NCBI GenBank assembly: GCA_964023275.1
Contig: OZ029929.1
Span: forward strand, 682,001-746,000
Direction: 5' to 3'
Length of the DNA: 64,000 nt
Origin: Norana najaformis
Taxonomy: Eukaryota; Annelida; Clitellata; Crassiclitellata; Hormogastridae
Within the stretch, counting starts at the first letter, position 1. Every line of letters begins with the position of its first letter. The position numbers and the translations under genes are program-made. Below are positions 2,700 to 57,620 of this stretch, piece by piece. The notes beneath the pieces are model-generated. The model saw only the letters and a program-made list of their open reading frames with translations. It was not told the DNA's origin and did not search any database.

Positions 2700-5600
2700 A
2701 TCGTTATCGTAATCTCGAGATTTCTACAGCGCCCAACGAAAGCTAACTCGCTGGAACCAGCTTATTCACCGCCGCTCAGTCAAAACAAAATCGATAGGCA
2801 AGATGGGTTCAGTTCCAGGTCAAGATCCAAGAGTCAGGAAGGCTGACGGCTGAGGTGGGTGGTGTTTGGAATCGGATCTGCAAGATATATAATGGAAAGA
2901 AGGGGAATCTGGGTTCTGTTCTGTTCTGTTCTGTTCTCAGCCTTCCTCGTTCCGAGATTCGGCCGCATCATGCACAATGTTCCTCCAGTGTCCTCTGTCC
3001 TCCACCAGCCTGAGCATCTCCTCCATTGTTAGCCCAGTCCATGCCCTGATGTTGCCCAACCAGTTTATTCTCGGTCTTCCTCTTTTCCGTCCTCCCGGTA
3101 TTGTGCCCTGTATTATCTCCTTCTCGATGCATGTTCCCTCCTTCCTCATGATGTGGCCAAAATAGATCAATTTCCTTTTCCTTACTGTCTTCAAAAGATT
3201 CCTCTCTACTCCAGCCGCTTCCAGTACCCATTCATTTGACCGCATTTCCATCCACGATATTTGCATGATCATTCTTAGACATTTCATCTCGAATGCTTCT
3301 ATCCTCCTCTCTTCCTCCTTCCTCAAAGTCCAACTCTCACATCCGTACAGTGCCACCGGCCATACTAATGTCATCAAGAGCCTCATCTTTGTTACCAGTG
3401 ATATGCCATGGCTTTTCCATATTTTTTTAAGATTTGTAGCCATTGCATATCCCTTTGCAAGTCGTACCCTTATCTCTGCTCCACAATCGCTGTCCCTGTC
3501 GATCCTCGAGCCCAAGTACATGAAAGTATTCACCTGCTCCACTGTTTCCTGACCTATGCTGATCTGACACCTGGTTTCTGCTGTTGTCATGACCTTTGTT
3601 TTATCCGTGTTAATCCGCATTCCATATTTCCTTCCTGCTCTGTCTAATCTTTCAACCAGTGTTTGTAATTCCTTCTCAGATTCTGTTATTAGTACTATGT
3701 CGTCTGCGTATCTTAAGTTTGTCAACCGCCTTCCCCCTATCTGCACTCCTCCGTCAAAACCCTCCAAAGCCTCTCTCATTACCCTCTCCGCCAGAATGTT
3801 AAATAAACTTGGAGACAACACGCATCCTTGTCTCACCCCTCTCCTGACTCTGAACTCTCCAGATAGTGTTCCTGCCACTTTGATCTTTGCGTTTTGTTTC
3901 TTGTACAGCTTGGATAACAACTTTATTATGTGTCCAGGAAATCCCATTTCTATCATTGTTGTCCATAATGTTTCATGTGCTATTGAATCAAAAGCTTTTT
4001 TGAAGTCTACAAAGCACATGAAAAGAGGTTGTTGATGTTCATTTGCCTTTTGCATAATAATTCTCAGGTTTGTTATCTGGTCTCTTGTCCCTCTAGCCTT
4101 CCGAAAACCCGCCTGTTCTTCCGCCACTTCTGCTTCCGTCTGATTCCTTATTCTTTCCAAAATGATCCTCAGCATAATCTTACTTGCGTGTGCGACCAAG
4201 GCCACTGTTCTATAGTTTGTACATTGCCTGGCATCTCCTTTCTTTGGTATGGGTACAAAAATTGAATCCGCCCAATCCTCTGGCCATTCTCCATCTTCCC
4301 ATAGTGCTGTGCATATAAGATGAAATCTGTCTACTGTAGCTTCTCCTCCGTATTTAAACAGTTCCGCAGGTATTCCATCCGGCCCCGCTGATTTCCCGTT
4401 CGCACACTGTTTTATCGCTCTTGCCACTTCTGATCTTAAAGGGGGTGGCTCTCTCTCGTATTCATTCGTGTCCTCCTTCACCTCTTTGTCATCGTACAGT
4501 TCTTCGCAATACTGCCTCCAACGTTCAGCAATGCCTTCAGTGTCCGTGATGTATTCTCCATTTTCTGCCTGTATGCAGTGTATTTTTGGCTGGAATTTGT
4601 TTGTAATTGACCTGACTGTTCTATACAGATATCTACTGTTCCCCTTCTTGTTCTCTATTTCCGCCTTTTCACACACCTCCTCCAGTTGTTTCTGTTTGTC
4701 GTTTCTTAGATGTCTCTGTACCTCCGCCTTCAGTTCTTTATACTCTTCTCTGTCCTTTTGCTTGGCTTCACGCTTCTTGTTGATGAGTTCAACAGTTTCT
4801 TTGGTAATCCATGGCTTCCCTTTGTCTCTCCTCCTGTAACCGACTATTTCTTCGGCCGCAGTGAAAAGTATGTCTTTTGTTTCCTTCCACAATTCGTTGG
4901 GTGACCTTTCCTCTATTACCGTGTTCAAAGCTTCGAATCTGTTTGCTACTTCTATCTCATAGGTGATTCCCTTGTTTCCAGCCAGATCCTCTACATTCAG
5001 TCTTTTTATCACCTCTTCCTGCTTTTTCCTTCCTAATCTGATCTTCAATGTTGCCACCAGCAAATTGTGATCTGAATTGCAGTCCGCACCTGGGTATGTC
5101 TTGCATTTGTTGATACACGTCTTCCACTTCCGATCGATACCTATGTAATCAATCTGGTTTTTTGTTCTTCCGTCCGGAGATGTCCAAGTACTTAATCTCC
5201 TTGGATGTTGTTTAAACCATGTATTGGCCAGACCCAACTCCTGTTCCATACAAAAATCTATTAGCCTCTCCCCTCTCCCATTTATCTCCCCCAATCCTTC
5301 TCCACCCGTCACTGGTTCTATTCTACTTTTTCCCACTTTAGCATTGAAATCTCCCATTACCATTGTAATGTCTCTTTTCGGAATGTTTTTTAACGCTTTT
5401 GCCAGCATCTGGTAGAACTCCTCAACTTCATCTTCCTCTCCATCTGTTGTTGGCGCATAGACCTGTATCATGCTTATGCATCTTGGCTTTGCTTTTAATC
5501 TTACCACCAAAATTCTGCTGCTTATTGTTTCATATCCAATTAGGGCCTTAATCCTGTTTTTCTGTATCCAAACTCCTACTCCTCCATGTCCCTGAGTCTC

Positions 5601-8553
5601 TTCTCCTGAATATACAATCATATGTCCCTCTGACGTTATGAAGTGTCCCCTGCCTCCCCAACGTACCTCTGCCAAGCCACATACCTCCAACCTCATTCTC
5701 TCCATCTCCTTACCAAGAACCTGGGTTTTTCCCAGCTGTATCATACTTCGCACGTTCCAAGTGCCTACTCTCATCCTCTTCCTGAGTTGAAAAATGTCAT
5801 CGTCCGACTTCCCTCTCTCTTCAATCTCCTCCGTCCCTGTATTACCTCCTCCTCTTCTTCCAGTAGCCGACTTTCCGACCCTGTCCTGGTTGCTCAACAG
5901 GGGACGCGGACCTTGTGAACCCGGGCGTCGTCCGAGCCGGTATGGATTAAGTTTGGATTCCATTTTTCATGATGCTGTTTGGGGATGATAAGATGGTAGG
6001 CCCCCTAGTCTTTCCATCTCGCAGTAAGGAAGCCCTGCTCCAGGTGTACCGGAAGTGCCCTCCTGTCTCTGTAGACTCGCCGTTGTCCCTTGTAACGGCT
6101 GAGGTGGGTGGTGTTTGGAATCGGATCTGCAAGATATATAATGGAAAGAAGGGGAATCTGGGTAGGATCTGCGAAACAGGAGTGTTTTTAGTTTTGAGTG
6201 GAAGACCTGCGTAGAAATCGTCAGGGATGAAGTGATGGTGAGATGGATCAGATAATTGTCGTCATTCTGGCGAGCGTTTTTTCCAGAGGAGTGGAGCAGG
6301 TATGGCTTTGACTATTATGTATGTATGTATATGTATGTATGTATATGTATGTATGTATTTATGTATAAATATGTATGTATATGTATGTATGTATAAGTAT
6401 GTATGTATATGTATGTATGTATGTGTATGTATGTATATGTATGTATGTATATGTTTGTATGTATATGTATGTATGTATGTGTATGTATGTATATGTATGT
6501 ATGTATATGTATGTATGTATATGTATGTATGTATATGTATGTATATGTATGTATGTATATGTATGTATGTATATGTATGTATATGTATGTATATGTATGT
6601 ATGTATGTATGTGTATGTATGTATATGTATTTGTATATGTATGTATGTATATGTATGTATGTATGTATATGTATGTATGTATATGTATGTATGTATATGT
6701 ATGTATGTATATGTATGTATGTATGGCTATATAGTCAGATTTTTCTATATTTCCGATTTATAGGTAGAGCGTTCTATCAGTAACAATAACAATAACAGCG
6801 AAAGTTTGGACGCCTTTCTTCCACTTTTTTTTTATATCTCAGTATCCCAAGTGGGACTTCATCTTCGATATAACCATTGGCTCTTGATTGACTGCTGGGT
6901 CGAGACCAGGGACACACCTTTTGGGCTGGCCGCGTTGAGCATACCCCTGTACTTGGTCCACAATGGGTATCGCCTTTTCAGCCTAGGCTGTTGCGTTTCG
7001 ATACCGTACTTTCTTACGTTACCCTTTCCCATATATTATTAGGCCTGTAATACTCCCATATAATAATCCATAATACGCCAGTGGCTTAGCGAAGGTTAAA
7101 GACTACTATTGTATTTGCGTGACTTTTCCAAAACATTGGAAAAAGTGTACGTAGGTATCTTTGAAATAGCCCTGCAGGAAAATCTTCGTCAGGCAGACCA
7201 GGTTGTTGACTTTACAAATAAAGGTGTCGATCCGAAACCTCATTTATGAACACTTTTCTGCTTTTAAGTTTTCTTTTTATAAAATGCTTTTGCTGATTTT
7301 AAGTCTCATTTTTTTCTTAATGAAAACGGATTTTGACCTGGTGAGAAACATACGCATAAGTGAAATTATAATTCTTTCGCAATTTCTGTTGTAATTAGAC
7401 GCGTCCGCTAATTTTGAAATGTTTCATTTGCATTGACTAGGTGGCAGCACGTACCTGTGCTTTATTGAAAATGATTCATTTGCATTGACTAGGTGGCAGC
7501 ACGTACCTGTGCTTTATTGAAAAATGATTCATTTGCATTCGCTAGGTGGCATCACATACATGTGCTTTATTGAAAATGTTTCGTTTGCATTCGCTAGGTA
7601 GCAGCACAGACACGCGCTTTCTTGAAAATTTTCGTTTGCATTCGCAGCATGGTATCTGAACTGTACATTATTATTAGTAGTAGTTCCAGTGTTTAACGAC
7701 ATCTTATGTCATCAAAGGCCATTGACGTTGCCCTCCTCCTTTATCCAGGCTTAGGCAATAGCGTAGTTGAACTTTACATTAGAAAATCTGAGTCAAAAAG
7801 ATCAACTTTTTAACTATCCGAATAGAGGTGTCGATCCGTACCCACATTTAGTTAACGCTTTTCATTTGTGACTTTCTTTTCATAAAATTCCTTTAGCCAA
7901 CAATAAACCCCAATTTTTCTTAATAAAACGAGGTTTACCAGAAGAAAATCCTTCGAAAATAGGTACAAGTAACACCATAATTCATTTGCGTTGGTCAGTG
8001 GATACGTGTCTGTTGAGAATATTTCATTTGCATTCGCTAGGTGGCAGCAGGGATTTTAAAAAGCCCAGTAGATCAAATTCTGTGATCAGTGGAAGGTTTA
8101 TAGAGCGTCGGCATTAGCGAGCTATTTCAACGGTGCTTTACAATGTCAAATGCAGGCGCGCTCGGTAATAAAAAATAAATGAATGATGCAGAAAATCAGA
8201 ATCAAATGCTGATACTAGAGTTAGACAGTTATAATAAATAATAAACATAATAAATGATTGACATGCATGTGTTACATCCATTACTACCGGATGTAAAAAG
8301 ACAACAATATAATGTTAAAACCATAAAAAATTTATAACACGTATGCTATATAAAAGCGTATATTAACACTTGTAATTGTTGCACGATGTTTAATATCTCA
8401 TGTCTTGATTGATATTACATTAATGATAAAAGGATTACTGTCCTATTATTATCATCCTTATGTTTATTGTCGTTTCTTTTGTTACTGTTATATTATAAAT
8501 TTTTTTGTAAATTCTGGTGCGGTATGTCACCCAGAATATTTTGATGAATAAAC

Positions 8554-8602
<49 letters not shown>

Positions 8603-11600
8603 CATATAATATATATATATATATATATTTAGTTAACAAAATTTTAACTGCTAGTAGAAAACAGATGGGATGAGCTGATTAGGTGATTTACTGTGTAAAC
8701 GTTTTGTGTGTTTCTGTTGTTGTTGTAAGATGCAACGTGCTCTGAAGAGCACTCTGACACCAACAGAGGTTGTCTCTGTCTACAGATCGGACAAGGATGG
8801 TAAGTAATGACTATACTGATAGGGGCGTGAAGCTATGAAGTTAACTCACCTGTCTTGATCACCTGTATTGATTACCTCTCTTGTTCACCTGTATTGTTCA
8901 CCTGTATTGATCACCTGTATTGATCACCTGTATTGATCACCTGTCTTGTTCACTTGTCTTGTTCTCCTGTACTGATTGTTCACCTGTCTTGTTCACCTGT
9001 ATTGATCAGCTGTCTTGTTCACCTGTCTTGTTCACCTGTACTGATTGTTCACCTGTCTTGTTCAACTGTCTTGTTCACCTGTATTCCTTACGTGCCTGGC
9101 TGATGTGTTTTGTTGACCTGTGGTTACAGCGTTTGAAATGATTCTGTCTGACCTTCTGGTTCCTGGTGACATCATCGAAGTGCCAAGACAAGGCTGCGTG
9201 ATGCAGTGTGATGCTGTTCTCATTAACGGAAACTGCATTGTCAACGAAAGCATGCTTACAGGTAGGAACCAGATCAAGTCATGCAGGTAAAAGCCTGGTC
9301 AAGTCATGCAGGTAAGAACCAGGTAAAGTCATGCAGGTAAGAACCAGGTCAAGTCATGCAGGTAAGAACCAGGTCAAGTCACACAGGTAAAAGCCTGGTC
9401 AGGTCATGCAGGTAAGAACAAGGTCAAGTCATGCAGGTAAGAACCAGGTCAAGTCATGCAGGTAAGAACCAGGTCAAGTCATGCAGGTAAAAGCCTGGTC
9501 AGGTCATGCAGGTAAGAACCAGGTCAAGTCATGCAGGTAAGAACCAGGTAAAGTCATGCAGGTAAGAACAAGGTCAAGTCATGCAGGTAAGAACCAGGTC
9601 AAGTCATGCAGGTAAGAACCAGGTCAAGTCATGCAGGTAAAAGCCTGGTCAGGTCATGCAGGTAAGAACAAGGTCAAGTCATGCAGGTAAGAACCAGGAA
9701 AAGTCATGCAGGTAAGAACAAGGTCAAGTCATGCAGGTAAGAACAAGGTCAAGTCATGCAGGTAAGAACCAGGTCAAGTCATGCAGGTAAGAACCAGGTC
9801 AAGTCATGCAGGTAAAAGCCTGATCAGGTCATGCAGGTAAGAACAAGGTCAAGTCATGCAGGTAAGAACCAGGTAAAGTCATGCAGGTAAGAACAAGGTC
9901 AAGTCATGCAGGTAAAAACAAGGTCAAGTCATGCAGGTAAGAACCAGGTCAAGTCATTCAGGTAAGAACCAGGTCAAGTCATGCAGGTAAAAGCCTGGTC
10001 AGGTCATGCAGGTAAGAACAAGGTCAAGTCATGCAGGTAAGAACCAGGTAAAGTCATGCAGGTAAGAACCAGGTCAAGTCACGCAGGTAAAAGCCTGGTC
10101 AGGTCATGCAGGTAAGAACAAGGTCAAGTCATGCAGGTAAGAACCAGGTCAAGTCGTGCAGGTAAGAACCAGGTCAAGTCATGCAGGTGTCATGTTCATT
10201 TATGAATTTCCCATAAATTATTAATAATGCAGCAACAGTTTTGACGTAGCAGATCTTGGTGAGGATTAGTAATAATAATAGAAGTAATTCTTTAATCTGT
10301 GGACATTTTGAGAAATTCCAAGAGATCGTAACTACCTAGTTATACTGCTAATAATAATAATAATAATTAACAATAATAATAAAAAGAATAATAATAATAA
10401 TAGTAGTAGTAGTAATAATAATAATATTTATTATTATTATTATTTTTATTATTATTATTATTATTTTTATTATTATTATTCCATTTGCTCATAAATGCCT
10501 CAGGATAAAGTTTTTTTTATCACCTGAGGGATCATACCTACCTCAGGTAAAAAGAAAAATAAATAAATAATAATAATAAAACTTCTGAAACTTTGGGCCA
10601 GACAGATTCAGTTGGCCCTGCTTATTCAGCTGCTTCGGCTTTCGTTTTGCGCAGACATCGGGAGGTAGGTCTAATAGGGAAACTACTGTACTTTCCTCCA
10701 TCTTCTTAGCTATGATGATCCAGGGCTTCACTGCAGTCAATCTTTGCGGCACCTTTCATACTGAAAAACCATCAGTGAAAACTAGTAATGCCAGAACAAT
10801 GTTATTCTAAGTTTTGTAAAAAAAATATTAATGTTAATAATGAAAACACAGGGAGAGCTTCAATGCTGCTGGCCTGGTTAGCAACATTGATTAACACTTA
10901 CATCAAGGCGCCTCTGTGCGTGAAGATGCCTGGTTCATTTCTCGTTCATGGCTTATTTCTGAGATTTGAATCTCGGGCTAGTACAGTCCATACACGGGGA
11001 CCTCAAATGGTGTGGTGCGCTTTCAAACAGGCAGCGGTGGTGAAGGATCTCGTCTGATAAATGCATTGAAAGTGAGCAGGGTCGAGGCCACACGGCCGCT
11101 ATAGATCCTGCTCTTTGGTCGGGTCTCGTTGGCTGGATACTCTCCTGAATACATACGAGAGTTGTTTGTGCCTGTCGGTGCCCATCCGGGTCGTCAGTCG
11201 CTTCGCTCTTCATCCCGAGGAGATTGACAGGTTCCTCGCTGTGGTACATCAGCATGACAACACCGTGCGTTGTCCTGCGTGGGTCCTTCACTGTGGAATA
11301 GTCTTCCTATAAACATTCGTTCTATTTCTGTGAATTTGTCCCAAGAAACATTCTCTTCGTTAGTCAAGACTTACTTGTTTAAATTAACTGGGCAGCCATG
11401 TTCACAGCGCTTTTGAGAGGTTCTTAAAATGCGCTATATAAAAGATTAGATACATACATACATACATACGTGTACATTTACATTTACATTCTGTGGCTGT
11501 TTAGTTGTGCCAGAACTTGACAGAATCTGGCTGTTTGAGATGCTGTCGCTAATCTCTGAGGGACATTTCTTTTGAACAGGTGAGAGCATTCCTGTCACAA

Positions 11601-14587: not shown

Positions 14588-17500
14588 GACCACACCTGAG
14601 AAAACTATCACAGTCAGAGAGTTTCAAAAACCAGTTTAATATTGCATCGAATTGGGCTGAATATTTTGGTGAAAACCTTTTTTTCATCATCACAAAAAGC
14701 TAAAAGCTGCAACTAACCCTAGCCCTTTAGTGAAAACACTCCTCTTCAACAAATTCTATCCTGATTCGTCCTCTTCCCCTTATTTCAGTTTCCAGTTCAG
14801 TTCCAAACACCATCCAGCGTGACTGTCTGCCTGCCTGACTCTTGGATCTTGACCTGGAACCGAACCCTTCCTGCCTATCGATTTTGTTTTGACTGAGCAC
14901 CTGAATAAGCTGGTTCCTGCAACTTAATTTTCTCGAGCTTACGATTACGATTACAACTATTTATTGTGTACATCTCCATGCAAAATGTTTTCGAAAATCA
15001 CTAAAGGTTAGATTTAGATTAGGGTAAGAAATAGATAATAATATGATAAATGAATGAAATGTGTCTTTTTGGATTTTCGTTTAGGAGTTGGAGGAACCAG
15101 GGGAAGATACAAACAAATATGATATCATTATGCCAACCGTTGTTCGTCCAAAATGTCCAGATATCACGAACCAATCTCCTGGCTACGAAAACTCCGACGT
15201 AGGTTTCCTGTCCAGTTGCTGTTATTACCAGTTGTTTTATATACACCCTGAGCAGTTTCTGGCCAGACAGTTTAAGTTGATTGGCTTTTACTGTGTAGAT
15301 GAGAGGATATGAGAATGTTGGTATTAACTGTCCAGGTAAGACCCTTTAAGTTGATTGATTGGCTTTGCCTGTGCAGGTGGGGATATGAGAATGTTGGTAT
15401 TAACTGCTCAGGTAAGACTGTTTAAGTTGATTGGCTTTGCCTGTGCAGGTGGGGGATATTAGAATGTTGGTATTAACTGCTCAGGTAAGACTGTTTAAGT
15501 TGATTGGCTTTGCCTGTGCAGGTGGGGGATATGAGAATGTTTAAGTTGATTGGCTTTGCCTGTGCAGGTGGGGGATATGAGAATGTTGGTATTAACTGCT
15601 CAGGTAAGACTGTTTAAGTTGATTGGCTTTGCCTGTGCAGGTGGGGGATATGAGAATGTTTAAGTTGATTGGCTTTGCCTGTGCAGGTGGGGGATATGAG
15701 AATGTTGGTATTAACTGCTCAGGTAAGACTGTTTAAGTTGATTGGCTTTGCCTGTGCAGGTGGGGGATATGAGAATGTTGGTATTAACTGCTCAGGTAAG
15801 ACTTTAAGTTGATTGGCTCTGCCTCTACAGGTGAGGGGGATATGAGTGTTGGTATTACCTGTTCAGGTAAGACCGTTTAAGTTGATTGATTGGCTTTGCC
15901 TGTGCAGGTGGGGGATATGAGAATGTTGGTATTAACTGCTCAGGTAAGACTGTTTAAGTTGATTGGCTTTGCCTCTACAGGTGAGGGGGATATGAGTGTT
16001 GGTATTACCTGTTCAGGTAAGACTGTTTAAGTTGATTGGCTTTGCCTGTGCAGATGAGGTATATTAGACTATTGATATTAGGCTTGTAACGTGGAGTGTA
16101 TGGGTTTGAGCTCCTCTGATGCGGTTACTGTGTAGGGGCCTCAAGCCAAGCAAGTCTTTCACTGACAGCTGCTCAGCGCCATTGATTAATGCTTAGTCAT
16201 AAGATAGTGGCGCTTAATAAATGCAGAAATAATATTAACTGTCCAGGTAAGTCAGTTTAAGTTGATTGGCTTCCCTCTGCAGGTGAGAGGATATGAGACC
16301 GTTGTTATTACCTGTCCTGGTAGGACGTTTAAGTTGATTAACTTTTTTACCTGTGCAGGAAAGGTTTTTGGCTTTACCAGTGCAGGTGAGTTGATTTGAG
16401 ACTATTGCTATCACCTGCCCAGGTGCTGTAATTTTAATTTGATTGGTGTTACCTGTGCAGGTGATGCCATATGAGATTGGCATCCTGAGACAGTTCACCT
16501 TCTCGTCAAAGCTGCAGAGAATGTCCGTCATCAGCCGAGAACTGAACAGCGACCACTTTGACGTCTTCACCAAAGGGTCGCCAGAAATGATTGTCAGCCT
16601 ATGCAACGCTGATACAGGTAGTCACCACAGCAGGGCTTGCGTTTCAATCAAAAAGACATAGTGGATTGTAGAGGAGGCGCTCATTCCTGCTATTTGACCC
16701 TTGAGCCGGTTGCTGCTTTGTGCATTAGACACCGGCGCTATAGAAGTTTATAAATAATAATAATAATAGCAATAATAATAACTGTGATGTTAATAATAGC
16801 AAACGTATGATTGAAATTGTATAAGTTCTCCATTAATCATGGAAATAGCCACCGGATCTGGGGTAAAAAGTAAAGTGTCCCATATTCCGCAGGTGAGACA
16901 TAGGAGGAGGCGCTCATTTCCTTTTCTTTTAGCCCTTTGAGGCGGCAATGGACGAATCCCAAGTTCCTGGACACGGGGCCAGTGGATCGCAGGACTTGCC
17001 GTTTACTTCCAACGCCGGTACCAAATTCTACTGCTTGGTGACAGAAACAGTTGGGTTAGATTAGCTGTAAGCCAAGTTAACGCCATTTGGGTTAAGTTAG
17101 GGTGTTAGCAACTTGTCCAGGGTTTTTACACGTAGCCTACTTAGAAGGCTTGAAGCTGCAGTCTTTCAGTCTTTCTACCTGACTCTTGGATCTTGACCTG
17201 GAACTGAATCCTTTCTGCCTATCAATTTGTTTTGACTGAGCGCCTGTGAATAAGCTTAGTTTTCGTTGGGTGCTGTAGAAATCTCGAGCTTACGATTACG
17301 ATATTTAATGTTATGCTTGATATCGTCTACCTAACACATATGTGTCTCTCTGTCTGTCTGTCTGGCTGGCTGGCTGTCTGTCTATCTCTGTCTGTCTGTC
17401 TGTCTGGCTGGCTGGATGTCTGTCTGTCTCTGTCTGTCTGTGTCTGTCAGTGTCTGCCTGGCTGTCTCTATCTCTGTCTGTCTGTCTGTCTAGTGCCGGA

Positions 17501-54700: not shown

Positions 54701-57620
54701 CTGATGTTTTCCTGGGAAAAGTACGTGCTTCAAGAAGCGACTGCCTTGAAATACTGAATGGCCTAAGATAAGCGCTGATGGAAGTAATAATTTATTAATA
54801 GTAAAAATATAATAATGATAATATTAATATTATTCTTATTCATTGCAAAGTAATATTTTCCAGAGGTTTGATACATAATAAGATGGTTTTTAAAGCTGAA
54901 ATAAATACGAGATCGATGTCCGTTACTATGTTATATACGAATTTGTGTGATGATGAAGCTTGTAATAAAAAGGCTTTGCTGTTTTAGTTCACAGATTTAT
55001 GTTGCTCCAGTATCCAGTGACAAGCTTCCATCGAAGGTGATAAGCTATGGAGATGTTTCAAACTCTGACAATCTCTTCCAACTATTCGTTCTGTCAGTTC
55101 TGTGAAGTCTTTCAGGTCTAAACTTTCTGTCCATTTCAACTTAATGCCCACCATAGCCTAACTTCTGGTTCCTTTAACCTATCGAAATTCAACCCGGCCT
55201 CTCCAATGGGTTATCATTCTGGATTGCGATTCCGACTTGAAGTGACCATCGACTGATGCCTTGGGCATTATGATAACGGCACTATAGAAGTCTTTAGATT
55301 AGATTAGAGGTTCCACTGGCCTGACTTAACTTTCTCACCTGGATTCCTGAATTTGTTAAGTTCTTCCACTGGCCAAGATTAATTTCCCTGAGTTGTGACA
55401 GGTTCTTCGTCTCAATGATCAGCTGAAGGACTCTCTCCTCCTGCTTGATCCAACCAAACGACAGATCAAGCTTTCGCCAGAGGATCGACTGCTTTGATAA
55501 TTCGTTCCAAAGGCGATTTACTCTCGCGACTCTTCAGGAAACAAGCACAGCACTTGATACAATACGGTAAAGACTGTCAGGTAATGTGAAGATTGTCATG
55601 TAATGTGAAGATTGTCAGGTAATGTGAAGATTGTCAGGTAATGTGAAGATTGTCATGTAATGTGAAGATTGTCAGGTAATGTGGAGATTGTCAGGTAATG
55701 TGAAGATTGTCAGGTAATGTAAAGATTGTCAGGTAATGTGAAGATTGTCAAGTAATGTGGAGATTGTCAGTTAATGTAAAGACTGTCAGGTAATGTAAAG
55801 ATTGTCAGGTAATGTGGAGATTGTCAGGTAATGTGGAGATTGTCAGGTAATGTGAAGATTGTCAGGTAATGTGAAGATTGTCAGGTAATGTGAAGATTGT
55901 CAGGTAATGTAAAGATTGTCAGGTAATGTGAAGATTATCAGGTAATGTAAAGATTGTCAGGTAATGTACGTAATGAAGTGTAGCTTAAAGGAATGTAAGA
56001 TTATATAAAAGCCAACTGATTTTTATTCACAATATTTTTCTCTGATGTGTTTTCCAACAACTGTGGCATATTTTCAGCTTAACCCCAAACACTGCATTAT
56101 TTTCAGATCTGTTACACAGCCATGCCTCAGCGCTATTTTGAGGTTCTTAAAACAGGTTATATTAGGAGCACATTAGCCGACTGGTTACAGAGCTCAGCTC
56201 AAAACGTGGAGGGTATGGGTTGAAGCTTCTCCCCTGAGATGGTTACGATGTAGGGACTTTGAGGAGTCTTTCACTCACAATTGCTCATCGACTGATGCTC
56301 CGTCATTAGATAGTGGTGCTTAATAAATGCAGAATAACAATATGTTCAAATACACACACAATGTCTAATGAACAGAAACTCGACAACAGTTTCATATGAT
56401 ACACAGGGATTCGATGCAAACCTAAATTTGAAAATGCTTCTCTTACGAAAGCCAGGTAGACAAAGCCAACATCATTGATTACGTTCTCTGTTCTGTTTCA
56501 CTTCTTTCTCTTCTGCTCATCTCTCACTTTCCCATTCAATTCCAAACACCATCCACACCATCCAACTCTTGGACCAAACTCTTCCTGCCTATCAACTGAA
56601 CGCCTACCAATAAGCTGTATATGAATAAGCTGGTTCCCACGACTTAGCTTTAGTAGGGCGCTGTAGAAATCTCAAGCTTACAATTACGATTACTTGATGC
56701 AACCATCAATTGATGTCTTGTTTGTTATCTTCGTGGTGCTACAGAAGTCACAAGATTAGATTAGATTAGATTGGTCCGAGCGTACCGACAGAGAGTAGGT
56801 AGAGGTCCGTCAGAATCGACGATGGTCTTGAAAATCTTAACCAGGATGAAGGACGGCAGAAATTGGCCCCAACGATCGATTTCATCCGTTGTTTCAGACA
56901 AACTTCGCTTTTTACAGATCTTGAGCTTTAGTAGATCGGGTTCGGATGTCCGCAAGCTCGTTGCCAAGATGACGTCGTTTGTGCCATGGTTGCCAGGCAA
57001 CGCGCTGTCGACATTGACAACATATGTGGTGGAGTCATCGCTGTTATGGGGCACTTTAGACAGCTGTCCAGTCTTTCGTTTCTTGGCCTCCTGACGTTTC
57101 TGTGGCGATGACCTCTGACTCTTGCTGCTAAAAACAGAACCAAACCTCGAACATCAACCCAAAAATTCCCACGAACTTTTACCCAAACTCTAACCCCTAC
57201 CATAGTACCTTTTCAGTCTCGGCTGTGCTACAGCACTATATAAATCATCTTATTATTATTATTAATATTATTAGTATCAGTATTATTATATAATATGTTG
57301 TCTAGCGATGAGGCGCTCTCTCTCGTGATCTATATCTTTGTGAAGTTCTTCAAATGTGCTTGGATACATAGTTACATACATACTAACTCAACTCAAACTC
57401 TAATCTTAAACCGATTCTAACCAGAACCCTAATCCTAGGTGACGAGTGCAATGACCGACCCTTCTCCGCGACGTTTCCTGGGTTTGACGGAGGAAGCCGA
57501 AGCCTCTGGAGTGTAATCGGAGTCGCTAGAATCGCTCGATGGCCACCCATCTCCGCCAGAAAACGAAAACAACATCGGATTCTTAGGATCCTTCTTAACA
57601 CCCAGAATTCCCTTCTTCAT
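48411..57620 (-). CDS. FBXL6: F-box/LRR protein, FBXL6 orthologue, 10 exons, complete
   Basis: Ten exons on the - strand join in phase into 576 residues. A Lys/Ser-rich N-terminus (about 1-138) precedes an F-box from about 140 (RWGQFLPSFILVKIFKTIVD, SDGPLPTLCRVARVNRLWNE). Leucine-rich repeats follow to the end (CPLLTSINLSGTRVNSVGV, LKVLDIRGCTSVT, ENLDLRGTQIS). The C-terminus, LHLDSCRGLPRGMKKEYSG, matches human FBXL6 (LNLESCRCLPRGLKRAY, from memory). Family role: substrate receptor of an SCF ubiquitin ligase, F-box binding SKP1 and LRRs binding substrate. Slightly longer than the human protein (539). The ATG at 57620 is the only good start, but exon 1 has a non-ideal donor (GG/GTCGGT). It is head to head with C15orf61 across about 3.1 kb. 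Confidence 0.94.
48610..49146. repeat. FBXL6 intron 9: (CT)n and AT-rich runs
   Basis: (CT)n at 48690-48725, then TAAATTAATG-type repeats and (TA)n at 48870-48890. Confidence 0.8.
49147..49301 (-). CDS. FBXL6: FBXL6 exon 9 (residues 460-511)
   Basis: Encodes WQHSLVVLDLSWNIYPG and SKLENLDLRGTQISCARVQ. Acceptor CTTTCAG, donor GCA/GTAAGA, phase 0 to 2. Confidence 0.94.
49335..49435. repeat. 15-bp minisatellite just upstream of the exon 9 acceptor
   Basis: About seven units of AGTGTTAGGTGCCAG. In the sense (-) strand each reads CTGGCACCTAACACT with the branch-point-like CCTAAC, lying about 35-135 nt upstream of the acceptor. Confidence 0.93.
49445..49720 (+). mobile_element. SINE B copy
   Basis: GTGGCACAATGGCCTACTGG head, GGGTTCGACTCC B box, AGCACTAGACCCATGTCCAG body. 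Antisense in FBXL6 intron 8. Confidence 0.8.
50170..50490. repeat. 60-bp tandem repeat, about five copies
   Basis: Units share GAAAATACATGCTGGATAAA, AAGGCCAGGTCAAGTCATA and AGGTCAAGCAGAATGACTG. Confidence 0.93.
50766..50928 (-). CDS. FBXL6: FBXL6 exon 8 (residues 405-459)
   Basis: Encodes ILKKSYGLKVLDIRGCTSV and LPVTDLEQLFIS (human RLLDLRGCARIT...LEQLHL). Acceptor TGCTGTAG, donor AAG/GTAATC, phase 2 to 0. Confidence 0.95.
50929..51939. repeat. FBXL6 intron 7: reverse tRNA-like SINE, SINE C, SINE B
   Basis: 50985-51200 is a reverse SINE with a tRNA-like head (- strand GTGGTGTAGTGGTATGGTTG and GGGTTTGAATC). 51215-51345 SINE C (+). 51600-51895 SINE B (+). Confidence 0.7.
51940..52040 (-). CDS. 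FBXL6: FBXL6 exon 7 (residues 372-405)
   Basis: Encodes PGFPNLQELDLGISGSS and GCEVSNNFLHR (human PGFPSLEELCL...VSNEVLGR). Donor ACAG/GTTTTT is non-optimal but phase and homology fix it; a more distal GT at 51912 would break the match. Phase 0 to 2. Confidence 0.9.
52041..53145. repeat. FBXL6 intron 6: SINEs, GGTAAG-rich stretch, partial exon 6 copy
   Basis: 52184-52260 and 52300-52450 are repeat ends. 52535-52700 SINE A (+). 52820-52930 SINE C. 52958-53050 is a damaged copy of the end of exon 6 with its donor. TTACCTTACC steps throughout (sense GGTAAGGTAA) give many donor-like sites. Confidence 0.7.
52958..53050 (-). pseudogene. Duplicated 3' end of FBXL6 exon 6 with donor
   Basis: Parallels 53122-53207: sense strand has CAGATTCTG, then GCGCCATTCC, CCATGCCTC, AAGGAACAG/GTAACA. 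The copy reads ATTCTGTGA where the exon reads ATTCTGAGA, so it carries a stop in the original frame. Confidence 0.8.
53146..53310 (-). CDS. FBXL6: FBXL6 exon 6 (residues 317-371)
   Basis: Encodes TTCSQLEVLDISNVLFTSD and CCPRLQILRLSNAPFRI (human CCPQLQVLEVS...CPQLQVLRLLN). Acceptor GCTTGTAG, donor CAG/GTAACG, phase 0 to 0. Confidence 0.94.
53768..53890 (-). CDS. FBXL6: FBXL6 exon 5 (residues 276-316)
   Basis: Encodes AMHHLLETRGNKVHSLNLSA, an LRR-like segment. Acceptor TTTGACAG, donor GCG/GTAGGA, phase 0 to 0. Confidence 0.88.
53891..54445. other. FBXL6 intron 4
   Basis: AT-rich with an (AAT)n run near 54280 and 54340; nothing else recognised. Confidence 0.6.
54446..54574 (-). CDS. FBXL6: FBXL6 exon 4 (residues 233-275)
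   Basis: Encodes LLADNCPLLTSINLSGTRV and LVDRCPDLNSFDLSSIK, two LRR units with CP-L spacing. Acceptor GACGCAG, donor AAG/GTATTG, phase 0 to 0. Confidence 0.93.
54575..55338. repeat. FBXL6 intron 3
   Basis: (ATT)n plus the CCCAGGTTTAAAAATTC motif near 54640. 55216-55305 is a reverse copy of the TTAGATTAGATTA-ended repeat. No exon. Confidence 0.55.
55339..55531 (-). CDS. FBXL6: FBXL6 exon 3 (residues 168-232)
   Basis: Encodes VARVNRLWNELSKQSILWRK, the second half of the F-box, and LREINLGQWKNLTNSGIQ. Acceptor TCCTGAAG, donor CAG/GTGAGA, phase 2 to 0. Confidence 0.95.
55570..55975. repeat. 19-bp minisatellite upstream of exon 3, ~21 copies
   Basis: Unit GTCAGGTAATGTGAAGATT on the + strand. 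In the gene's sense strand each unit contains CATTACCTGAC, with the branch-point-like CTGAC. It starts only about 40 bp upstream of the acceptor. Confidence 0.96.
55976..56785. repeat. FBXL6 intron 2 remainder: SINE A and LINE tail
   Basis: 56165-56340 SINE A (+). 56470-56695 LINE tail (+) ending CTTACAATTACGATTAC. 56700-56772 TTAGATTAGATT repeat end. Confidence 0.7.
56786..57127 (-). CDS. FBXL6: FBXL6 exon 2 (residues 54-168)
   Basis: Encodes a basic stretch (KRQEAKKRKTG) and the first half of the F-box. Acceptor TTTTTAG (a NAGNAG-like alternative starts 3 bp later), donor GTCG/GTACGC, phase 2 to 2. Confidence 0.93.
57460..57620 (-). CDS. FBXL6: FBXL6 exon 1 coding part (residues 1-54)
   Basis: Begins MKKGILGVKKDPKNPMLFSF; Ser/Asp-rich (SSDSSDSDYTPEAS). 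The donor GG/GTCGGT is weak and inferred from phase; the reading frame stops shortly after it, so a splice is needed here. Confidence 0.8.

Follow-up and report, generated by a model that had tools for sequence, protein, structure and literature searches.

The presence of a row of short, exon-like segments within a single intron of a P5B ATPase gene, each running from an acceptor to a donor, raises the question of where such segments come from and whether they are exons, decoys for the spliceosome or by-products of a repeat. The window is the whole stretch of 64,000 nucleotides analysed (C17:682001-746000), taken from a genome of 608 Mb in 17 contigs. The host gene was modelled with 16 exons (617-23817), whose borders were placed by hand by reading the sequence; they are backed by the single open frame that the joined exons form and by the protein match. 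The joined translation has ATP13A2 chains as its best solved relatives (E 6.6e-202) and contains the Pfam families E1-E2_ATPase, Hydrolase and Cation_ATPase, in agreement with the sequence-only reading, which had named a P5B ATPase. The same reading had placed the end of exon H and the start of exon I in phase 0, and this holds in the 16-exon, one-frame model. The junction lies where the alignment with human ATP13A2 is poor, near a 5-residue gap. The three features that frame the array are the following (a slash marks the cut at a splice site):

15085..15198, + strand: exon H of the P5B ATPase, ending in phase 0 at the donor GAC/gtaggt (gene model)
15199..16460, + strand: intron H-I, 1262 nt, the reader's intron 8 (gene model)
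16461..16617, + strand: exon I of the P5B ATPase, starting in phase 0 (gene model, ATP13A2 match)

Within this intron lies a minisatellite that appears to have been seeded by the boundary of exon I. The claim of nine AG-bounded segments ending in CAG/GTAAG was recovered in number, lengths, frames and sequence. Five segments of 36 nt are open and encode 12 residues, four being identical and the fifth one base different; the off-pattern segments are also as described, two of 36 nt with a TGA stop (15831, 15981), one of 35 nt and one of 37 nt. A tenth such segment is split by an insertion, and two further copies lie nearer to exon I. The array and its parts, all on the + strand, are:

15271..16422: minisatellite, apparently seeded by the boundary (joint spacing; two-step unit of 73 bp; truncated units of 46 bp; local repeat of 119 bp)
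15299..15335: cassette 1, 37 nt, frame-shifting
15377..15411: cassette 2, 35 nt, frame-shifting
15449..15484: cassette 3, 36 nt, open
15494..15539: truncated unit of 46 bp with an acceptor but no donor
15568..15603: cassette, 36 nt, open
15613..15658: truncated unit of 46 bp with an acceptor but no donor
15687..15722: cassette, 36 nt, open
15760..15795: cassette, 36 nt, open
15831..15866: 36-nt cassette with an in-frame TGA
15908..15943: cassette, 36 nt, open
15981..16016: 36-nt cassette with an in-frame TGA
16054..16246: tenth CAG/GTAAG segment, split by the SINE-like insertion; 36 nt and open if this is removed
16081..16237: SINE-like insertion, including one copy of its 6-bp ATATTA flank (genome-wide match ~16081-16234)
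16283..16319: older copy, 37 nt, donor CTG/GTAGGA
16386..16422: diverged 37-nt copy, the closest to exon I, with GTGCTG at the donor position
16439..16474: real acceptor boundary of exon I (-22..+14), from which both joint types appear to derive (alignments)

The insertion, for which SINE is our own label, has ATATTA on either side and matches 39 further places at 79-85% identity among 40 scored. TRF finds periods of 73, 119 and 36/37 in the intron and ends the main array at 16080; the 119-bp blocks are near-identical (99% matches). Counted up to the real acceptor, 20 of the 27 intervals between joints measure 35-38 nt, the rest being 27, 39, 41, 41, 46, 46 and 193, and the gaps behind donors are 35-41 nt in 11 cases out of 12 and 66 nt in the remaining one. 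A GT follows the cut at 24 of the 27 joints. Joints alternate between an acceptor-like type (A) and a donor-like type (B), and the 73-bp unit is one such A+B pair, repeated in blocks. The autocorrelation of the array has the same structure, at 0.59 for lag 73 and 0.39 for lags 36 and 37, against 0.22-0.36 at the other tested lags. Eight of the 14 A joints read GTGGGG, and four joints (15830, 15980, 16282, 16385) read CAG/GTGAG.

We scored splice signals with weight matrices built from the P5B gene's own sites, which number only 15-16. With acceptor/donor pairs 20-60 nt apart and thresholds of 8/8, the array holds 10 pairs, against 1 elsewhere on the + strand and 3 on the - strand of the 64 kb. 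At 9/8.5 these counts become 8, 0 and 1, and at the lax setting of 6/6 they are 14, 15 and 17. The paired splice signals of the cassettes exceed chance. On these small matrices, 13 of the 14 cassette acceptors score at least as high as 14-16 of the 16 real sites, and the ten CAG/GTAAG donors outscore all 16 real donors; the fourteenth cassette has an acceptor of 9.75 and a donor of 2.95. The scores support the view that the cassette signals would be about as good as the real sites of the gene. When each joint is read both ways, again with the small matrices, 24 of 27 reach the weakest real site and 4 of 27 reach the medians.

The repeat unit resembles the boundary of exon I, as had been proposed. 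Aligned with the real boundary, the 73-bp unit scores 47, against a maximum of 30 among 1,000 shuffles, none of which reaches 47. The exon side alone is only weakly similar, its score being reached by 12, 67, 160, 228 and 275 of 2,000 shuffles for five copies, and by 24, 55 and 716 of 1,000 shuffles in local alignments. The donor half of the unit, written as the hand-made consensus TTGGTATTACCTGTCCAGGT, agrees with the real acceptor TTGGTGTTACCTGTGCAGGT at 18 of 20 positions. Over 27 nt, the A joints share 17-22 positions with the real boundary and the B joints 16-19, a similarity that in the B joints is partly made up of features that any acceptor has. At least 17 positions are shared by 10 of the 12 B joints and by none of 264 background AGGT sites, 5 of which reach 16; the other two B joints fall within this background range. 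Over 36 nt, four of five tested B joints score 21-23, against a maximum of 19 among 98 background CAGGT sites, and the fifth (16319) scores 18, which is matched by 8 of the 98.

The hand-made consensus and the main-copy tail match the real acceptor better than any of 300 shuffles, and the copy at 16283 better than all but 4 of 300. The score of the copy at 16386 is meaningless here because the query overlaps its target. A donor copied from the donor region of exon H or of exon I was rejected, the main-copy tail showing no similarity to either (199 and 121 of 300 shuffles). The start of intron H-I matches the copies at 16283 and 16386 and the hand-made consensus at levels reached by 1, 1 and 2 of 300 shuffles, in short matches; for the two copies (1 of 300 each) this is no worse than the match of the 16283 copy to the acceptor (4 of 300). 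Exon I's own ATTGG...CAG was tried as a second seed and is not significant (474 of 2,000 shuffles).

These results modify the initial picture, in which each cassette was a duplicated mini-exon with a donor of its own. The origin of its acceptor end at the boundary stands, but the donor end is boundary-like too, and a "cassette" is therefore one period of the repeat. The cassette (36) and the "intron" between cassettes (37) are best read as one period each of a boundary repeat of about 36.5 bp, which would explain why the two are nearly equal in length and have CAG/GT at both ends. It seems that the real intron/exon junction was copied more than 20 times in a row. The edge copy of this array is a diverged one: the real acceptor at 16460 aligns with the unit and lies outside the main array of TRF.

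Tandem alternative exons of the Dscam type are open and conserved in length, and their copies have diverged in coding sequence. Among 12 full units, divergence is 0.172 in the exon part and 0.148 and 0.206 in the flanking intron parts. In the phase-0 frame, the divergence at codon positions 1, 2 and 3 is 0.252, 0.113 and 0.150, so that position 3 is not the most variable; these figures are affected by the relatedness of the rows, by one row that lacks a base and by alignment gaps that displace the frame. Four of the 11 uninterrupted acceptor-to-donor segments are not multiples of 3, and four of the 11 have an in-frame stop (15377, 15831, 15981, 16386). No coding constraint is seen in the copies, and the open frames all go back to a single lineage. 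We rejected a Dscam-like exon bank: the open copies are near-identical, lengths vary among 35, 36 and 37 nt, 4 of 11 segments have stops, and exon-like divergence is absent. Thus, of the proposal that a boundary duplication had created a set of potential microexons, the derivation from the exon-I boundary holds (score 47) and the selected microexon set is not supported, in view of the frameshifts, the stops and the lack of coding constraint.

A search of the 608 Mb, which skips very common words, found no second locus for the unit of the array. A paralogue on C16 (L058) shares the phase-0 intron and the exon start GTGATGCC, with no TRF array in that intron. In the C15 paralogue a short TAC repeat before exon I is the only TRF match, and in the C11 paralogue, where exon H was not found, TRF reports only TGA and ATTC repeats after exon G. 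Because no array was found in the intron of L058 and no second locus for the unit, the intron probably predates the array, which is probably local. An introner or other dispersed element was rejected: this search yielded one locus for the unit, and only the insertion at 16081 is dispersed.

The account we consider probable is that of a neutral minisatellite, seeded by the boundary, which would place latent dual-specific AG/GT sites in tandem and produce exon-like cassettes as a by-product. It would have been founded by a slip, or by unequal exchange, that spanned the intron/exon junction and involved about 36 nt. Since exon I begins with GT, the copied joint would be AG/GT, a latent dual-specific splice site. 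In one of the two joint types the exon side would then have drifted from GTGAT to GTAAG, and the resulting A+B pair may have spread by slippage and conversion or block amplification. At the RNA level, the real donor of exon H and acceptor of exon I would remove the whole array, whose silence is assumed, and any joint may be used rarely, as noise. Gaps of 35-41 nt probably fall below the length at which an intron can be spliced out, and neighbouring cassettes would therefore compete rather than be joined. Nonsense-mediated decay would dispose of the frame-shifting, stop-bearing and partly used forms. One point speaks against neutrality: strong signals are kept in most copies, and drift would erode them unless the expansion is recent.

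A rival reading takes the array as a decoy, its many strong sites competing with the H-I junction and diverting some transcripts to nonsense-mediated decay, so that copy number would tune expression. The strong cassette acceptors, the CAG/GTAAG donors that score above all 16 real sites and the existence of frame-shifting and stop-bearing cassettes agree with it. Longer alleles of the human ABCA7 VNTR accompany lower expression and more exon-19 skipping (PMC5954066), although its authors do not link the lower expression to decay of frame-shifted forms. The modelled reading frame is intact, and the divergence of the 12 units gives no sign of selection keeping the sites; we consider a decoy unlikely. 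A functional microexon bank, in which any one 36-nt cassette would add 12 residues between exons H and I, in a variable loop before a strand of the N-domain, would make use of the five open phase-0 cassettes with full signals and of a junction at a poorly aligned spot of human ATP13A2, close to its 5-residue gap. It is very unlikely, given that the open copies are near-identical and offer no diversity, that the exon part is not more conserved than the intron part, that lengths of 35, 36 and 37 nt and stops in 4 of 11 segments occur, and that the copies closest to the frame of exon I itself are 37 nt long and frame-shifting.

Recursive splicing would use the AG/GTRAG joints as ratchet points and remove the intron stepwise. 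The four CAG/GTGAG joints would suit it, as would further AG/GTRAG arrays in the genome (L040 and L044), but the intron has just 1262 nt and GTGGGG stands at most A joints, which makes this highly improbable. We give almost no weight to an assembly artefact that inflated the copy number or the 119-bp repeat: the near-identity of the 119-bp blocks (99% TRF matches) would fit, but substitutions and indels set the copies apart, and one of them carries an insertion.

The gene is rich in tandem repeats: those with a period of at least 10 make up 24% of its introns (617-23817), compared with 2.0% of six 5-kb stretches placed arbitrarily, and the shortest of the 15 modelled introns has 257 nt. The splice boundaries of the gene are not enriched in arrays, 2 of 30 having an array of period at least 10 no more than 40 nt away, where the figure for intron positions is 28%; the acceptor of exon I is not among the two because TRF ends the main array at 16080. 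A TGTC repeat (17343-17491) reaches the acceptor of exon J (17493), where it serves as the pyrimidine tract. Elsewhere in the window there are a 19-bp repeat of 21 copies with TCAGGTAATG (55570-55967, + strand) and a long stretch that looks like a non-LTR retrotransposon (2960-5800, - strand). At exon C an array begins at a donor:

9259..10188, + strand: exon C donor array, 37 copies of the 25-bp unit CAGGTAAGAACCAGGTCAAGTCATG, the first copy being the real donor at 9261/9262 (TRF, gene model)

Here the edge copy, i.e., the real donor, lies within the TRF array. Twenty-nine of its donors score at or above the real median, and only the first keeps the frame and an open reading.

Across the genome, three donors in a row were matched 400 times and the reversed pattern 310 times, a small excess in which overlapping matches are counted. 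By our own count, the matches listed include at least 41 distinct donor arrays, of which 33 were examined; with 2 from another pattern this makes 35 loci. For 22 of the 35, open frames that end at the first donor and have 25-30 residues or more were submitted to Pfam as 27 hand-chosen peptides, 20 of which gave no family. Eight of the 35 arrays begin at a recognised coding exon, two of these falling below the Pfam cut-off:

L024: VCP, Pfam 2.8e-15, PDB 3.5e-28; matched right up to the donor
L068: Cys-loop receptor, 4.8e-13; matched right up to the donor
L082: Hedgehog, 9.5e-31; matched right up to the donor
L084: M14 peptidase (carboxypeptidase), 1.6e-8; matched right up to the donor
L086: DPYD, no Pfam family, PDB 4.9e-13; matched right up to the donor
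L015: secretin-type receptor, 2.3e-6; the match stops 16 residues before the donor
L067: kinase, 3.8e-4, below the Pfam cut-off
L077: Vps41, 4.1e-4, below the Pfam cut-off, no PDB match

The repeat contains exon-tail sequence at L024, L077, L084 and L086, and little beyond the last bases of the exon at the other four and at exon C. In the VCP/p97 gene (L024:1450-1610), the exon end and donor occur three times over with a 49-bp period. Because CAGGTAAG is itself a donor consensus, ascertainment alone should bring real donors into the set of arrays that contain it. The class of donor arrays is real at these loci; the count was taken without a matched control and does not show an excess over chance.

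Acceptor triples gave 421 matches against 351, in a listing dominated by one array. Seven acceptor arrays were found among the matches listed, and at none of the six loci fetched from them does a recognised exon start at the last acceptor. At L091, one of the six, an exon that we take to be Na/K-ATPase-like lies about 55 nt beyond that acceptor. The donor-acceptor-donor pattern gave 7 against 2, in a wording that cannot match the array of intron H-I. Two loci (L040, L044) carry arrays of AG/GTRAG joints that have a period of about 33 and resemble zero-length exons or recursive splice points; in L040 the sequence ahead of the AG is rich in pyrimidines. We hold, tentatively and with more doubt than confidence, that the genome carries recurrent minisatellites seeded by live splice boundaries: by donors in the P5B exon C, VCP, Hedgehog, DPYD, the Cys-loop receptor, the M14 carboxypeptidase and others, and here by an acceptor whose AG/GT joints have split into A and B. 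Such arrays might be standing intermediates of exon or intron birth, stochastically used and differing in copy number between individuals.

Parts of this architecture have parallels in published accounts. Human UBC and VCX3A have dual-specific AG/GT sites in tandem repeats (Duan et al. 2024, PMC10809524); there, as here, units are bounded by AG/GT joints, the segment from joint to joint equals the repeat period, and repeat expansion would be a route to new introns; the joints can be read as 5' or 3' sites there and may be so here. In the human ABCA7 intron-18 VNTR the unit is 25 bp, the first GT acts as the donor of exon 18, and repeat length accompanies exon-19 skipping (PMC5954066). Like our array it is a minisatellite with a real splice site as its edge copy, and the exon C array has its very anatomy (25-bp unit, first GT as donor). 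In the potato RdRp gene, an intron was gained by a tandem duplication spanning an intron/exon boundary (PMC4974935): in both cases the duplicated piece is the 3' end of an intron with the start of an exon, so that acceptor, tract and branch site would be inherited and a donor recruited at the duplication. Human paralogues have internal tandem repeats at exon-intron boundaries (PMC2812944), where minisatellite expansion can alter splice structure, as it might here. Direct repeats near intron borders are the subject of a further report (PMC11782384).

The differences are equally clear. Unlike in UBC and VCX3A, the array here is intronic, lies upstream of the real acceptor and was apparently seeded by it; its alternate joints have diverged into acceptor-like and donor-like forms, and their dual use is putative. 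Our array is known from the DNA of one assembly, which sets it apart from the other three systems. The potato case is a single duplication with one new intron shown by RNA (PMC4974935), whereas here there are many copies; in the human paralogues the variable repeats are exonic or at exon boundaries, lie in segmental duplications and have transcript support (PMC2812944), whereas here they are intronic; and unlike the ABCA7 VNTR, the array of intron H-I is on the acceptor side and has a unit of about 36.5 bp. Among the matches listed from the open-licence literature (titles and abstract openings), none describes an intronic array of acceptor-derived, exon-like cassettes.

The interest of the intron H-I array lies in its dual-site architecture and in the presence of splice-site arrays at other genes of the same genome. 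It suggests a mechanical route to exon-like cassettes without selection: when an exon starts with GT and its acceptor boundary is repeated, AG/GT joints would result, a few substitutions would turn some of them into donors, and cassette and intron would come to have the same period. Together with the donor arrays in other genes, it would give one genome several natural settings in which to see how the spliceosome selects from many near-identical sites. The same arrays would also bear on how new exons and introns begin.
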